From Gemmatimonadota bacterium (GTDB lineage: Bacteria; Gemmatimonadota; Gemmatimonadetes; Longimicrobiales; Gaopeijiaceae): a stretch of DNA of 64,000 nt. The notes below the pieces were generated by a model. That model was not told the DNA's origin, made no database searches, and was given only the letters and a program-made list of their open reading frames with translations. The position numbers and the translations under genes were made by a program. Location: contig JAJDYN010000038.1 of assembly GCA_022825135.1 (NCBI GenBank), positions 1 to 64,000 on the forward strand, given 5' to 3'. Position 1 is the stretch's first letter. Every line of letters starts with the position of its first letter. Positions 1 to 18,260 of the stretch are shown one piece after another.

Positions 1-180
1 CGTACAAATATAACGCCACTGAAATCGGCCTCTCAGGATGCCCTGCAGTGGCCGAAACGGGGTTGAGAGACCTTCGGCGGAGGCAGCCGCCTGCGAATGG
101 CGTCAGCGAGCCCGCCAGCGCCTCTGGCGGGTCAGGGAAGATGGGGTCTCGGGGTCCGCCACATCGCGGAGCCCAAATTC

Positions 181-199
181 GTCAATGGCAGAATGGGAC
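181..199. repeat. Direct repeat copy 1, IS21-like terminal repeat
   Basis: GTCAATGGCAGAATGGGAC, identical to the copy at 262-280. The similarity continues downstream: both copies are followed a few bases later by ATGTGA and then by GGG, so the real unit is nearer 38 bp. Several same-strand repeats of about 20 bp near an end are typical of IS21-family elements; the assignment is inference. Confidence 0.6.
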
Positions 200-261
200 G
201 GCCGAATGTGACTTTGGGCCATCGTGGTTCCTGCCAGCGGGGAGTTGCGAGATCCGGGCGT

Positions 262-280
262 GTCAATGGCAGAATGGGAC
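262..280. repeat. Direct repeat copy 2
   Basis: Identical 19-mer to copy 1, starting 81 bp further on, in the same orientation and with a partly conserved 3' extension containing ATGTGA. Confidence 0.6.
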
Positions 281-433
281 ACGCGCATGTGAATCCGGGA
301 CGCGGCGCGGACATGCCGCCGATCCCTGGCGCGCAACCCGCCAATGGCGCGAGCGACCTTTCCTCGATGGGGAAGGCGAAATGCCCGTCAACGGGCGGAA
401 GCCACTGCCCGCTAATGGGCAGGGGATCGCCGG

Positions 434-11870: not shown

Positions 11871-13349
11871 TCACAGGCGCTTGCGCATGCGCGCCGGGAG
11901 GATGCCGAGCTGGTCGCGGTACTTGGCCACCGTGCGGCGCGCGATCCGGACGCCATCGGCGCGCAGGAGCTTGACGAGAGCCATGTCGGTGAGGGGTTTG
12001 CGGGTGTTCTCCCCGGAGATGAGCGCCTCCATCTTCGCCTTGACTCCGCGAGCGGAAATGTCTGTGCCGCTTGTGGTTGAGAGCCCGCTCGAGAAGAAGT
12101 ACTTGAGGCTGAATACGCCGCGCGGCGTCTGGACGAATTTCTCGTTGGTCACGCGCGACACGGTCGATTCGTGCATCTCGATATGGTCGGCCACCTCGCG
12201 GAGGGTGAGCGGCCGCAGATGCTGAACCCCCTTTTCGAAGAACCCGTGCTGACGCTCGACGATGTACTGCATCACCTTGAGCATCGTCTGGCGCCGCTGC
12301 TCGATGGCCTGGATCATCCAGCTGGCGGAATTCAACTTGTCCTTGATGAACGTCTTGTTCTCTCCCTGGAACAGGCGCTTGTCCCGGGCGACCTCCTGGT
12401 ACGAGCGCGCCAGCCTCAGCTGAGGCATGCTGGTGTCGTTGGCGAACACCATGTATTCGCCGGAGATCTTCTCTACGATCAGATCCGGGACGATGTAGTG
12501 CTCCGGTTCGGGCGAGTACCTGAGTCCCGGCTTCGGGTCGAGCCTGGCGAGTTCGTCGGCGGCATCCTGGACCACCCTGGGCGCCACCCCGAGGGCGCGG
12601 GCGATGTTGGCCCAGCGGTGACTCAGGAGGTTGTCGAAGTGCTCGTCGACCATGGTCCGGATGAGTTCATTCTCCTCCCCCGATTCGCGCAGCTGGATAA
12701 GGAGGCTTTCGCGCAGATCGCGTGCCCCCACGCCCGGGGGGTCCATGTCCTGCACGATCTCGAGCATCGCCTCCACTTCGCCCACCCCGAACGGGGCGAG
12801 CATGATGGCCAGTTCCTCCGGAGATTCGTCCCCGGCGGCTTCGAGGGCGAGGTCCCGCACGTCCTCGAGCCACCTGTTGAGGTGTTCGGCGATGGTTTCC
12901 AGCGGACAGCGCAGGAGGCCGTCGTCGTCGATGTTGCCGATGATCTCCTGCGCGATCCTCTGCTCGCGGCCGGAGAGCGTCAGCAGCTGAGTCTGGTTCT
13001 CCAGGTGATCGCGGAGGTCGGGAGCTCTGGACGGCGTGGGGATGTCGAAGTCACGGGGCTCGTACTGGGCGCGGTGTCCGCCGGCGTCGAATCCGTCGAG
13101 CAGGATGGATTCCCAGTCGACTTCGTCCCCGTCTTCGTCCGCGCCGTCCTGGTCGAGTTCCACTTCCTGCTCAGTGTCGCCCTCGACCACCTCCAGGAAC
13201 GGATTCTCCGTCATCTCCTGCTTCAGACGTTGCTGGAGGTCGAGCAGCGGAAGATGAAGCAGCTCCATCGCCTGGTACAGGCGCGGGTTGATCTTCATCT
13301 CCTGCCTGAGCTCCGGGCTCTGGATGAGCCGCGCGCCGAGACCGGTCAT
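11871..13349 (-). CDS. rpoN: RNA polymerase sigma-54 factor
   Basis: A 492-residue sigma-54. Region I (glutamine- and leucine-rich, TGLGARLIQSPELRQEMKINPRLYQAMELL) is followed by an acidic region II, the core-binding domain, a helix-turn-helix (TLREVADHIEMHESTVSRVTN) and the RpoN box ARRTVAKYR at about residues 470-478, which reads the -24 element. The ATG at 13349 overlaps the lptB stop as ATGA. The lptB-rpoN adjacency is an old synteny also known from Proteobacteria, where hpf usually follows; here wecB follows instead. No enhancer-binding protein is present in the window. Confidence 0.96.
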   Translation of the reverse strand: MTGLGARLIQSPELRQEMKINPRLYQAMELLHLPLLDLQQRLKQEMTENPFLEVVEGDTEQEVELDQDGADEDGDEVDWESILLDGFDAGGHRAQYEPRDFDIPTPSRAPDLRDHLENQTQLLTLSGREQRIAQEIIGNIDDDGLLRCPLETIAEHLNRWLEDVRDLALEAAGDESPEELAIMLAPFGVGEVEAMLEIVQDMDPPGVGARDLRESLLIQLRESGEENELIRTMVDEHFDNLLSHRWANIARALGVAPRVVQDAADELARLDPKPGLRYSPEPEHYIVPDLIVEKISGEYMVFANDTSMPQLRLARSYQEVARDKRLFQGENKTFIKDKLNSASWMIQAIEQRRQTMLKVMQYIVERQHGFFEKGVQHLRPLTLREVADHIEMHESTVSRVTNEKFVQTPRGVFSLKYFFSSGLSTTSGTDISARGVKAKMEALISGENTRKPLTDMALVKLLRADGVRIARRTVAKYRDQLGILPARMRKRL

Positions 13350-14539
13350 GCCGCCACTGGGGGATTGAAGCGCTTGCGCATGCGATCGGTCAGAACGGGG
13401 CCAAGATAGATCTCCGCGACCTCGTCGTTCCAGACCAGTTCGGAGACGGTGCCGACCACCCGGATGCGGCCCTCGTGCATGATGTACGCGCGGTCGACGA
13501 TCTCGAGCGTCTGTTCCACGCTGTGGTCCGAGATGATCACCCCGATGCCGCGGTGCCGCAGCCCCGCCACGATCTGCTGGATGTCGTTGACCGCGATGGG
13601 ATCGATTCCGGCGAAAGGTTCGTCGAGGAGCATGAACTTGGGACGCTGAACGAGCGCCCGGGTGATCTCCAGGCGACGCCGTTCCCCGCCGGAGAGCGAA
13701 AAGGCCTTCGAATGGCGAAGGTGGCCGATGGAGAGCTCCGACAGCAACTCGTCGAGGCGCTGTCTGCGCTTCGCCTTCGGCAGCGGGAGCGTCTCCAGGA
13801 TCGCCATTACGTTCTGTTCGACGGTCAGGCGCCTGAAGACGGAAGGCTCCTGGGCGAGATAACCGACCCCGAGGCGCGCGCGCCTGTACATGGGAATGCC
13901 GGTCAGCACCCGGTCGTCCAGCCGCACCTCCCCGGCCTGGGGTGAGATCAGCCCGACCATCATGTAGAAGGTCGTGGTCTTGCCGGCGCCGTTCGGCCCG
14001 AGCAGCCCTACGATCTCGCCCTGCTCCACCTCGATGTCGACGTCGTTCACTACCTTGCGGCCGCCGTAGCTCTTGGTCAGCCCGGTCGCGACCAGCCGGC
14101 TGGTGGGCGCCGACGCGCCGTTGTCCGCGGATTCGCTGGCAAGGACTCCGAACTTGTGTTGCAGCACCACCGCCATGGCCTCGATGTTCTCGACCAGCGG
14201 ATCGCGGTCGACGGAAATCTCGTCCCACAGCCCGGCGTCGAGGGAAAGCCGTTCCCAGGCGTCGTCGCGGGGATCGCGGCCGGCGATGCCGACCGCCTCC
14301 AGGCGCCCGATCACCTGTTCCTCCAGGTAGCCGCCGAGTTCGCCGCCGCGCTCGCGCCAGGATGCCTTCAGGTGGAGTTCGAGTTCCTCGTACTGGCGGC
14401 GCACCGACGACACCCAGCCGTCCCGGCTCACGGATCCCGAATCGTCCGCGCCCCGGATCAACTCGAGCACCGCGACCGCCACCGAGACGTCGTGCGGCTC
14501 GAGTTCCTGCATCAGTTCCAGAAAGCGTTCCAGCGTCAT
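13346..14539 (-). CDS. lptB: LptB ABC ATPase with a 146-residue N-terminal extension
   Basis: The C-terminal 250 residues are a canonical LptB, the ATPase that powers LPS extraction from the inner membrane with LptFG: Walker A GPNGAGKTT at about 181-189, LSGGERRRLEITRAL, Walker B FMLLDEPFAGID and ISDHSVEQTLEIVDRAYIM. Ahead of it lie about 146 extra residues (FLELMQELEPHDVSVAVAVLE and an amphipathic Glu/Arg-rich helix-like stretch) that I cannot match to a family. Normal LptB is about 240 residues. The start at 14539 follows GGAG; one base separates it from the preceding stop. No lptF or lptG is nearby. Confidence 0.93.
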   Translation of the reverse strand: MTLERFLELMQELEPHDVSVAVAVLELIRGADDSGSVSRDGWVSSVRRQYEELELHLKASWRERGGELGGYLEEQVIGRLEAVGIAGRDPRDDAWERLSLDAGLWDEISVDRDPLVENIEAMAVVLQHKFGVLASESADNGASAPTSRLVATGLTKSYGGRKVVNDVDIEVEQGEIVGLLGPNGAGKTTTFYMMVGLISPQAGEVRLDDRVLTGIPMYRRARLGVGYLAQEPSVFRRLTVEQNVMAILETLPLPKAKRRQRLDELLSELSIGHLRHSKAFSLSGGERRRLEITRALVQRPKFMLLDEPFAGIDPIAVNDIQQIVAGLRHRGIGVIISDHSVEQTLEIVDRAYIMHEGRIRVVGTVSELVWNDEVAEIYLGPVLTDRMRKRFNPPVAA

Positions 14540-14540
14540 T

Positions 14541-16646
14541 TCATCTCCGTGTGGCAGGGGGCGCCGCGGTCGTGTCGGCGGGCGCCGCGGCCGTATCGGG
14601 CGGCGCCACAAGGGGCTCGAGCTGCACGCCGCGGGCGTTGCCTTCCACGATGACCGAGGTCACTTCGCCGTCCTGCATGAAGATAGTGATCAGGTTTCCC
14701 CGGACGTAGTGAAGGGCGAGCCGGCTGTCCGGCTCCGGCTCCGCGGCCGCGTCTTCTCCCCCGCCCGCTCCCGCGGGTTCCTGCGCGTCGGGGTCGTCCT
14801 CCGTGGCGGCTTCCCGCGTGGGCTCCGAGGAGACCTCGTCCCCGGCGGGAGCTTCCTGCGCGCCCTGCTCCCCGGCCTCCTGTCCCGCCGCGGCCTGCTG
14901 CGGGGGCTCGTCGACGGCCTCTTCCTCCCCTTCTCCCGCCTCGTCGCCTTCACCTTCTCCTTCCGCGGCGCCGCCGGAGGGAGTCATGCGGTAGAGGCTC
15001 GCCGCCTCGCCGCGAGCTTCCAGCCGATCGAGCTGGTAGCCGCCGGTTGCCTCGCTCGAGGTCGTTTCGGTGCCTGTCCCGGTCGACGTATCGGCGGCTA
15101 CGGGACGGAAGACGGCGATGATGGTGTCGCCGGAAACCCAGTCCGAGCGCGCGATGTCCGGCGTGTCGTCGGCATTGAGGGAATCGCGTGCGAGCGACTC
15201 GCCCCGCGCGCCGCCCACGGCGACCACGCGCTCCAGCACCTCGTTGGGGGCCAGAACGTCGATGGAGTCCCCCTCCAGTTCGAACGTTTCGGCCACGGCG
15301 CGCGGCCGGGCGGGAGGAAGCGCCGCAGCCGTGTCCCCGTTCTCGCCGGCGGTGTCGCGCAGGGCGTCCGCGTCTGCGGGGACCGGTTCTTCGCCGAGCG
15401 GGATCGCTTCGCCCAACGCCGGTTCGGCGGCCTCGACCGGGGCGTCGTCGGTGGCCTGCTCTTCCGCAGCAGCAGCGGTGGCCGCCGCCGAATCCCCGGA
15501 TGGGCCGCCGCCATCCCCGGGCGGCCCGGGAAGTTCGGTCTCCGGCGGGCGTTCGTTCATGGCCACGATGCGATCCAGCACCCCGTCCTGCATCAACACC
15601 CGGATCTCGGGCGCGGTCAGGTCGATCTCGCTTGCGGCGAGTGCGGCGTCACCCCGCGCCGCGACCTGGTTGCCGTTCATGTCCAGATCCACCGCGTCGC
15701 CGCTCAGGACGTATTCGGCACCGGATCCGAAGACGCGGGGCGCCGTCCCCCGCAGAAAGAGCCTGCCGGCAGCTTCCCGGTACTCGATGGAATCCGCGAG
15801 CGCTCGAAACTCATCGTTGTAGAGCTCCGCGTTGCCGGTGGCCAGCATGTAGTCCGCGCCGCTCAGGTAGATGCGCTCGGCATCGACGTCGTAGGGGACG
15901 GGCGTGGTGTCGGGGGGTGGCGGGTCGGGGGGCGCGACCTCTTCCTCGCCGGCCTCGACAGCCGCCGGGTCAACCGGAGGGACAGGGGTATCCGCGGCGA
16001 CCAGGGTGGAGTCGGTCGGGGCGGTCGAATCCACCGGGTCGTCCGCGGCGGCACCGGCTGCCGCGCCGGTGGAATCCCCGGCGAGCACCGAGTCGCCCGC
16101 CGGCGCCGCGTCGCCGGCCGGAGTTTCCGCCGCGTCCACGACCCCGGCCGAATCCGGCGCCGCCGCCCGGGGCGATATCAGGATGACCGCATGCGCCCGC
16201 CGTCCGTCCAGGCCGAGGATGGTCATCTCCCCGTCCTCGCGCCGGGAGCCGGAGCCGACCAGAACGGTGCTGTCGCCCTCGAAGGTGGCGCCCGAGGCCC
16301 CATCGGTGATGTGGATGTTGCCGACTCCGATCAGCCGGCCCTCGGAGGAGTAGTGGTCGGCGCGGTCCGCGGTCATGAACGCCGTCGAGTCGCGGTACTC
16401 GAAGTTGCCGATGAAGCGGGTGTAGCCCGAGACGTCGTCGAGGACGGCGCTGTCTGCCCGGATGATGACGCCCTCGCCGCAGCCGAACACGGGGTCGGAG
16501 ATGAAGTTGTAGAAGCCGTCCCCCGTCAGCTGGACGGCGGAGGAGCGCGACTGGAGCAGGTCGCAGGTGTCCTGCGCCACGACGCCCGTCGCCGGGCACA
16601 GAGCCGAGCCCGCCAGCAGGGCGGCCAGAACCGGGGAGCGGCGCAA
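14541..16646 (-). CDS. OstA/LptA-like periplasmic LPS-transport protein with acidic linkers
   Basis: A 701-residue exported protein (signal peptide ending near VVAQ, residue 25). Three stretches resemble the beta-strand repeats of OstA/LptA: about 35-155 (GEGVIIRADSAVLDD, MTADRADHYSSEGRLIGVGNI), about 253-375 (VDAERIYLSGADYMLATGNAEL) and a split third from about 455 to the C terminus (SRLALHYVRGNLITIFMQDGEV). They are joined by long linkers very rich in Ala, Asp, Glu and Pro. It sits between lptC and lptB, so the LptA bridge role is likely. LptA is normally about 180 residues. Linker lengths and disorder are judged by eye. Confidence 0.75.
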   Translation of the reverse strand: MRRSPVLAALLAGSALCPATGVVAQDTCDLLQSRSSAVQLTGDGFYNFISDPVFGCGEGVIIRADSAVLDDVSGYTRFIGNFEYRDSTAFMTADRADHYSSEGRLIGVGNIHITDGASGATFEGDSTVLVGSGSRREDGEMTILGLDGRRAHAVILISPRAAAPDSAGVVDAAETPAGDAAPAGDSVLAGDSTGAAAGAAADDPVDSTAPTDSTLVAADTPVPPVDPAAVEAGEEEVAPPDPPPPDTTPVPYDVDAERIYLSGADYMLATGNAELYNDEFRALADSIEYREAAGRLFLRGTAPRVFGSGAEYVLSGDAVDLDMNGNQVAARGDAALAASEIDLTAPEIRVLMQDGVLDRIVAMNERPPETELPGPPGDGGGPSGDSAAATAAAAEEQATDDAPVEAAEPALGEAIPLGEEPVPADADALRDTAGENGDTAAALPPARPRAVAETFELEGDSIDVLAPNEVLERVVAVGGARGESLARDSLNADDTPDIARSDWVSGDTIIAVFRPVAADTSTGTGTETTSSEATGGYQLDRLEARGEAASLYRMTPSGGAAEGEGEGDEAGEGEEEAVDEPPQQAAAGQEAGEQGAQEAPAGDEVSSEPTREAATEDDPDAQEPAGAGGGEDAAAEPEPDSRLALHYVRGNLITIFMQDGEVTSVIVEGNARGVQLEPLVAPPDTAAAPADTTAAPPATRR

Positions 16647-16647
16647 T

Positions 16648-17193
16648 TCAGGGTCCTCCGCCGCTCCGCGTTCGCTGGTTCTGGATGAAGATGTTCTCGA
16701 AATTGGCGTCGGACAGGAACGCGGATCCCTCGACCACCCGGCCTCCCTCCGTCATGGTCATGACCGTGGTCGAGTCGCTCCAGATGCGGTCCCTCTGGGG
16801 CTCGTAGTGGATCTCCGCGCTCTCGATGCGCCGGTCCGCCATGACGAGAACGGCGTCGCCGCGCGCGACCATGTGCTGGGTGTCCTCGTTCATCAGCCCG
16901 GTCCGGGAGGTCACGCGCGCCCGCTCCTCCCCGCCTTCGTCGTACATGATCAGGTTCAGCGTACGCAGCGCCACGGACGTGGAGTCCTGCCAGATGTAGG
17001 CGGTGTCGGCCTGGATGCGGGCCTCCCGGATGCCGTCCACCGTCACATGGGTCACGATGTCGAAGAGAACCTGGTCGGCCTGGAGCGCGCGCAGTTCTTC
17101 GGGGAGCGGCGTCGTCGCCACCTGCTCTTCGCACCCCGCGACCGCCATCGCAGCGACCGACAGAAGTACCGACATCCTCTTGCTTTTCAACAT
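16648..17193 (-). CDS. lptC: LptC, LPS export membrane protein
   Basis: A 181-residue LptC/YrbK-type protein that would receive LPS from LptBFG and pass it to the OstA-like bridge. Instead of the usual uncleaved membrane anchor it has a lipobox (MAVAGC), so it is probably a lipoprotein. The OstA-like strands DGIREARIQADTAYIWQDS and RTGLMNEDTQHMVARGDAVL follow. The ATG at 17193 shares a base with the kdsD stop (TGATG); a GTG one codon earlier is possible. The OstA-like gene follows after 1 bp. Confidence 0.85.
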   Translation of the reverse strand: MLKSKRMSVLLSVAAMAVAGCEEQVATTPLPEELRALQADQVLFDIVTHVTVDGIREARIQADTAYIWQDSTSVALRTLNLIMYDEGGEERARVTSRTGLMNEDTQHMVARGDAVLVMADRRIESAEIHYEPQRDRIWSDSTTVMTMTEGGRVVEGSAFLSDANFENIFIQNQRTRSGGGP

Positions 17194-18260
17194 CACAGGA
17201 CTCCCGATCTCATCAGGTCGTGGAGGTGCACGACGCCGCGCAGCCTGTCTTTTCCGTCCACCACGGGCAATGCCATGACCCCGTGCTGCTCCATCTCCCG
17301 GGCGGACGCCGAGGCCAGGGTTCCGAGGCGGGCCAGCCGGGGCTCGGGGCTCATGATGGCGCGGATCGGAATATGCAGAAAGTCCGCTTCGCGCTCCATG
17401 AGGCGCGTGAGATCGCCGGCGGTCACGACGCCCACGACGCGGTCCTGCCCGTCCACGATGGGCACGGTGCCGCGCATGTGCGCAAGCGGCACGATGCAGT
17501 CGCGCACGAGCGCGTCCTGGAGCAGCGACGGGTACCCCTCCCCCACCATCACCTCCTCGACCAGAAGCGTGAGCCTGCGTCCGAGAGCGCCCCCCGGGTG
17601 CAGGCGGGCGAAGTCCGCGGGCTCGAAGCCCCTCCGGCGCAGAAGAACGATCGCCAGCGCATCGCCCATCGCCATGGCGGCGGTGGTGGAGGTGGTGGGC
17701 GCCAGGTCCAGGGGGCAGGCCTCCCCGGCCACCGAACAGTCCAGGAGCGCGGTCGCATGCCGGGCCAGGGGCGAGCGCGGACTGCCGGTCATCAGCACGA
17801 TGGGCACTCCGAAGCGCAGCAGGTACGCGGCGAGTTCGGCGAGTTCCCCGGTGTCGCCGCTCTTCGAAACCAGGACCGCGACGTCCTCGCGCGAGACGAT
17901 GCCCAGGTCCCCGTGAAGCCCTTCGACCGGGTGGAGGAAGAAGGCGGAGGTGCCTGTGGAAGTGAGCGTGGCCGCGATCTTGCGCGCGACGATGCCGCTC
18001 TTGCCGATCCCCGAGACGATGACCCGGCCCGAAGCGGCCAGAACGACTTCGACCGCTTCGACGAAGGTCTGGTCGATGCGGTCGGCGAGATGGACGAGTG
18101 CGCCGCCCTCGGCGCGGAGCACCCGGGCCGCTTCGGCAATGACGGAGGCGTCCGCGCCGGCGTCTCTGCCGGGCAACGACGGCGCACGCGTACGGATCGC
18201 GTCCGCGTCAGCCTCTCCGGCCGCCCGTGTCTTCGGCGGGGACGTCATCGCTCCTTGCAT
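17193..18260 (-). CDS. kdsD: D-arabinose 5-phosphate isomerase
   Basis: A 355-residue KdsD/KpsF enzyme converting ribulose 5-phosphate to arabinose 5-phosphate, the first KDO step. A SIS domain at about 45-190 carries the sugar-phosphate loops SGIGKSGIVARKIAATL and SKSGDTGELAELAAYL; two CBS domains occupy about 215-350 (MSPEPRLARLGTLASASAREM). ATG at 18260 is used; ATG at 18248 has AAGGAG too close to it. The gene overlaps kdsC by 53 bp and abuts lptC. Confidence 0.95.
   Translation of the reverse strand: MQGAMTSPPKTRAAGEADADAIRTRAPSLPGRDAGADASVIAEAARVLRAEGGALVHLADRIDQTFVEAVEVVLAASGRVIVSGIGKSGIVARKIAATLTSTGTSAFFLHPVEGLHGDLGIVSREDVAVLVSKSGDTGELAELAAYLLRFGVPIVLMTGSPRSPLARHATALLDCSVAGEACPLDLAPTTSTTAAMAMGDALAIVLLRRRGFEPADFARLHPGGALGRRLTLLVEEVMVGEGYPSLLQDALVRDCIVPLAHMRGTVPIVDGQDRVVGVVTAGDLTRLMEREADFLHIPIRAIMSPEPRLARLGTLASASAREMEQHGVMALPVVDGKDRLRGVVHLHDLMRSGVL

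Follow-up and report, generated by a model that had tools for sequence, protein, structure and literature searches.

The window analysed here, a stretch of 64,000 nucleotides at the start of contig JAJDYN010000038.1 (assembly GCA_022825135.1) of a Gemmatimonadota bacterium, carries on its minus strand a 701-aa open reading frame (ORF; 14541..16646) that an earlier note, made from the sequence alone, had described correctly in extent and length without giving its strand. According to the ORF listing the frame begins with a TTG codon at 16646, 1 nt past the stop of lptC, and is preceded by a ribosome-binding-like sequence, GGAGGA, 7 nt upstream of the start (16654..16659, minus strand). As the note had also proposed, the gene occupies the position of lptA, being located between lptC (16648..17196, minus strand; TIGR04409 55.2 bits, cut-off 38; PF06835 39.6 bits) and lptB (13346..14539, minus strand; TIGR04406 340.9 bits, cut-off 240). 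Read in the direction of transcription, this strand carries kdsB, pyrG, kdsA, kdsC, a KdsD-type isomerase gene (KpsF/GutQ family), lptC, the 701-aa gene, lptB and rpoN, and the neighbourhood is a classic LPS/Kdo-Lpt cluster. An LptD-type barrel gene (LptD_2, E 1.6e-26) is present on contig C26 of the same genome, and contig C19 has two LptF/G genes side by side.

The LptC of the window (...AMAVAGC) looks like a lipoprotein rather than a transmembrane-anchored protein, and in 50 of 52 LptC N-termini, by reading of the rows, the mature part follows a hydrophobic segment that terminates in Cys (a regular expression alone counted 40 of 52), with the remaining two cut by the contig start. In LptB the ATPase domain is preceded by about 145 aa of additional N-terminal sequence (14105-14539, minus strand), an extension that has no Pfam match and is matched by tblastn in 11 of the 57 named loci.

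Taken alone, the 701-aa protein scores 15.7 bits against PF03968 (cut-off 20.4) and 16.5 bits against TIGR03002, far under the cut-off of 71.7, and when it was used as a single phmmer query against solved structures there was no match up to E 10. Among the 52 aligned members of the family, almost all of which are from one phylum, PF03968 (LptD_N) is matched by 49 (E<=1, best 1e-9), TIGR03002 by 44 (E<=1, best 4.4e-9), PF06835 (LptC) by 11, and OstA_2 (PF13100), a mainly Bacteroidota family, by 26 (best 1.5e-7), the last without a match to the window protein itself. The family profile searched against the PDB matched LptH (1.6e-5), LptD (1.6e-4), and LptA (4.5e-4). The protein belongs, as far as sequence comparison can place it, to the LptA/LptD_N (OstA) superfamily, and this assignment is firm once its relatives are included. 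Since the TIGR03002 cut-off is missed, it is called LptA-type and is not placed in the TIGR03002 equivalog. An OstA profile built from a first alignment (A1, the window protein with 16 of 30 genome-search loci) also matched the LptC ORFs in 24 of the 57 loci (E<1e-3). Two later alignments, A2 and A3, contained the window protein and 51 of the 57 loci, the incomplete or split genes L039, L040, L062, L066, L079, and L091 being omitted.

Of the 198 genomes sampled from the class, 192 gave the fused form in the profile search, as did 172 of the 174 with a completeness of 90% or more and a contamination of 5% or less; single-sequence searching recovered 149 of the 198. Two of the six genomes with no match (G157 and G167) are 92-93% complete and are from the same family as the window, and the other four are 55-88% complete. 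LptC is upstream in 52 of the 57 named loci, the other five being truncated by the start of the contig, and LptB is downstream in 54, the sequence ending in the other three, such that the gene is between lptC and lptB in every locus long enough to judge. Gemmatimonadota MAGs account for almost all of the named relatives. The one with another name, L069, is titled Acidiferrobacteraceae and groups with Gemmatimonadales rows L055 and L057 (support 100/99), and it is probably a mislabelled MAG. In a MAG of the same genus (L039, 3896-6318) the gene is broken into two parts in different reading frames, either by an assembly error or by a real frameshift. A tblastn search of plasmids for a plasmid-borne relative gave no match.

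The 701-residue chain has a putative signal peptide (residues 1-24, 16575..16646, with cleavage predicted between GVVA and QD) followed by four conserved folded blocks, which were delimited using the alignment and the structural model and are all encoded on the minus strand. These are block N (residues 25-158, 16173..16574), which is modelled as a first beta-taco of LptA length, block M2 (245-366, 15549..15914), block M3 (446-556, 14979..15311), which is the most conserved (ARDSLN..DW..GDTII) and is interrupted by a 17-residue loop at 519-535, and block C (642-678, 14613..14723), the last three strands of the proposed slide. Between them are three low-complexity stretches of 86, 79, and 85 residues, linker 1 (159-244, 15915..16172), linker 2 (367-445, 15312..15548), and linker 4 (557-641, 14724..14978). 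They contain 17, 18, and 28 D/E residues, respectively (63 in total, linker 4 being the most acidic), and one K/R each (three in total). The chain ends in an A/P/T-rich tail predicted with low confidence (679-701, 14544..14612). The earlier description of OstA-like stretches with acidic separators in a multi-unit chain was therefore right about the separators and about an OstA chain of several units in the place of LptA, while its count of three stretches gives way to four conserved blocks. Comparison of the blocks by hhalign related N to M2 (prob 90.1) and M2 to M3 (prob 93.8), scores that suggest internal repeats, with 27.2 for M2-C and no similarity for N-M3 (1.2) or N-C (0.2); the M3-C pair was excluded because its columns are shared by construction. 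Block N contains two cysteines, C28 (codon 16563-16565) and C56 (codon 16479-16481), that are conserved without exception in the 52 rows of A2, and a disulfide between them is possible, close to the end expected to dock with LptC.

Block length hardly varies across the 57 loci (about 137, 122, 73 or 67, 21, and 37 residues), but the spacers range over 4-158, 0-103, 4-51, and 6-93 residues in the complete rows and the split L039 (figures that shift slightly with the alignment), or from 0 to about 158 when partial rows are also counted. Fixed block lengths with variable spacers, together with the profile matches in the PDB, indicate that the block pattern is more than chance. The Gemmatimonadaceae-type rows (L080-L093 except L090) have spacers of only 0-11 residues and keep all of the folded blocks, the sole exception being a 26-residue linker 4 in L093. 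With long linkers defined in the present analysis as at least 150 residues in total, 12 of the 52 members have them, and a tree built from the folded columns only requires at least four changes between the long and short states, with several long branches that make the placements uncertain. Since the blocks are constant and the linkers have shrunk and repeatedly expanded by lineage, the linkers are optional. Between the window protein and its closest relative the long linkers retain 78-88% aa identity compared with 93-100% for the blocks, with 34 gap columns in linker 1. Values of dN/dS against L037 are 0.63, 0.81, and 0.87 for the linkers and 0.23, 0.32, and 0.24 for N, M2, and M3, but against L038 they are 0.35, 0.35, and 0.86 for the linkers and 0.38, 0.21, and 0.11 for the blocks, and the contrast is not consistent. 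Judged by these comparisons, the linkers are acidic parts of a conserved open frame that appear to be loosely constrained and dispensable over evolution. The LptD of the same genome (L035, 1157-4180, minus strand) also carries acidic, proline-rich low-complexity stretches; hence the bridge protein is not alone in having such insertions, and their presence in both suggests a general compositional habit.

An AlphaFold model of the mature window protein, computed with the 52-sequence alignment, has a pLDDT of 73.7, a pTM of 0.67, and 32 strands, with 292 of 677 residues at pLDDT>=90 and the three long linkers mostly below 50. The model of a linker-free relative (L084) has 30 strands, a pLDDT of 87.5, and a pTM of 0.83. 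The top Foldseek matches for the models are chains of LptD, LptH, LptA, and LptC. The window model superposes on LptD (9ia0_A; Z 17.3, rmsd 3.6, 160 aligned, model 4..271), on LptC (4b54_B; Z 13.1, rmsd 2.1, 115 aligned, model 3..132), and on LptA (2r1a_C; Z 15.0, rmsd 2.3 Å, 127 aligned, model 62..285), and the last of these spans the N/M2 junction and linker 1. In the linker-free relative the counterpart of block N superposes on LptA (2r1a_H; Z 14.6, rmsd 1.7, 120 aligned, model 1..140) and the following stretch on the N-terminal domain of LptD (9kn3_A; Z 14.9, rmsd 3.0, 163 aligned, model 156..343), such that two successive LptA-length stretches are matched. As LptA superposes both on N and across N/M2, linker 1 would seem to leave a continuous beta-taco and not to join separate jellyrolls. 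The same fold lists contain MORN1 (Z 11.0-11.7) and junctophilin (Z 9.7-10.8), not far under LptA, and the MORN, junctophilin, radial-spoke, and CPAP rows (Z 8-11.7) were set aside as generic beta-repeat matches. Because unrelated beta-repeat proteins come this near to the LptA scores, Z alone is no proof of a taco, above all in the last third. The fold matches of the window model barely reach past residue 456, and a beta-taco (jellyroll) fold is predicted in this way for about the first two thirds only. The models thus point to a continuous taco about two LptA units long, with the last third less certain, and rigidity between the blocks is judged from pTM and superposition.

The reading that accounts best for these results, and that we regard as probable, is that in Gemmatimonadota the function of LptA is hard-wired as a fused slide of about double length. 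A single exported polypeptide would provide a folded core of about 370 residues, in which 30-32 beta-strands form a continuous beta-taco of approximately two LptA units, and fusion would give the bridge a fixed length in place of the head-to-tail oligomerisation of LptA. LPS extracted by LptB2FG would be handed to LptC, pass from there to the N-terminal block, move through a shared hydrophobic groove, and exit at block C to LptD; the cargo, the direction of transport, the contacts with LptC and LptD, and the rigidity of the whole rod are inferred. The acidic Ala/Pro/Asp/Glu stretches would be disordered loops that leave the taco at strand turns and that the core does not need.

A different arrangement, proposed in the earlier note, is one of three separate jellyrolls on flexible acidic tethers, which would form an extensible bridge adapting to the width of the periplasm. 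The long, acidic linkers that are disordered in the model and the full-chain pTM of only 0.67 are what such a bridge would be expected to show, but most Gemmatimonadaceae-type members retain every block with almost no linker, the linker-free relative is predicted as one body, the long linkers arose repeatedly, and LptA superposes straight across linker 1. Prediction of the whole chain gave, in place of three jellyrolls, a folded run of about two LptA lengths, and the final block, with 37 residues and three strands, is too short for a jellyroll. We therefore consider a tethered bridge improbable. The linkers might instead have a specific job, as a polyanionic brush that holds LPS in the groove, in binding divalent cations or basic partners, or in spacing the rod from peptidoglycan. 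Their large excess of acidic over basic residues, the identity they keep in a closer relative, and the repeated changes in the long-linker state would all be in line with such a role, which is itself compatible with a fused-slide core. Most members do without long linkers, however, constraint on them looks weaker by dN/dS against L037 and is inconsistent against L038, and the LptD of the same genome shares their composition, all of which makes a dedicated function rather unlikely, if less so than tethering.

The 701-aa protein could also be an accessory OstA protein and not the LPS bridge, with a divergent canonical LptA encoded elsewhere. No second LptA was found in the window's genome by PF03968, PF13100, TIGR03002, or the A2 family profile at E<=10, the last of which matched one gene only, the 701-aa gene itself. 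The genome is about 93% complete, and PF03968 is insensitive here, its genome scan having missed even the 701-aa protein, so that a divergent LptA could escape it. Against an accessory role are the result with the family's own profile, the flanking of the gene by lptC and lptB wherever a locus is long enough to tell, and the near-universal presence of the family in the class, and we regard it as very improbable, the most so of the readings discussed.

The fused slide can also be stated in a stronger form, in which two LptA units are fused as a rigid slide throughout the class, the invariant N-terminal Cys pair may act as a disulfide lock, and a lipid-anchored LptC replaces the transmembrane helix. 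This is a tentative proposal that we hold to be possible and somewhat short of an even chance. If it is correct, LptC, the two units, and LptD would make up the four-unit bridge predicted to span the periplasm, and the LptA 'dimer' would be the natural stoichiometry. A fused chain bears on the number of LptA molecules per bridge. In published accounts, a bridge is expected to require four OstA domains, with LptA as a dimer or a periplasm that is locally narrower (PMC3944529). Cells can grow with an LptA mutant that is monomeric, and a length of about 16 nm is given for a bridge containing one LptA, compared with 21 nm for the periplasm (PMC5575297). A second LptA unit would bring a bridge of about 16 nm near to that width. 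With the number of units set genetically at about two in a naturally fused chain, bridge length could be tested by changing the units in one gene, and the variable acidic loops mark where the beta-taco tolerates very long insertions.

Among the closest known systems is LptA/LptH of Proteobacteria (YhbN; TIGR03002, PF03968), which shares with the Gemmatimonadota protein the lptC-lptA-lptB gene order, export, an OstA beta-taco, and a weak but significant profile similarity. It differs in being a single unit, whereas the Gemmatimonadota chain is predicted to be about two LptA lengths, carries long acidic loops, and falls far under the TIGR03002 cut-off. LptA is described as having 16 strands in its one OstA unit (PMC6164715), compared with the 32 modelled here in one chain. 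Over the first 270 residues of the model, the structure that matches best is the N-terminal periplasmic domain of LptD (PF03968; Z about 17), but the window protein has no outer-membrane barrel, and LptD (LptD_2 type) is encoded elsewhere, on contig C26. No paper on a Gemmatimonadota LptA or its fused form was found in the open-licence PMC literature. Proteins with up to four OstA domains per polypeptide have been predicted (PMC3944529), and these share with the present protein the idea of several OstA units in one chain, although the accessible passages of that paper name no Gemmatimonadota and no acidic insertions. The kind of protein is therefore already known as a multi-OstA fusion, and what is added here is a fused form that is nearly universal in a class, its anatomy of blocks and loops, and the evidence concerning the loops.
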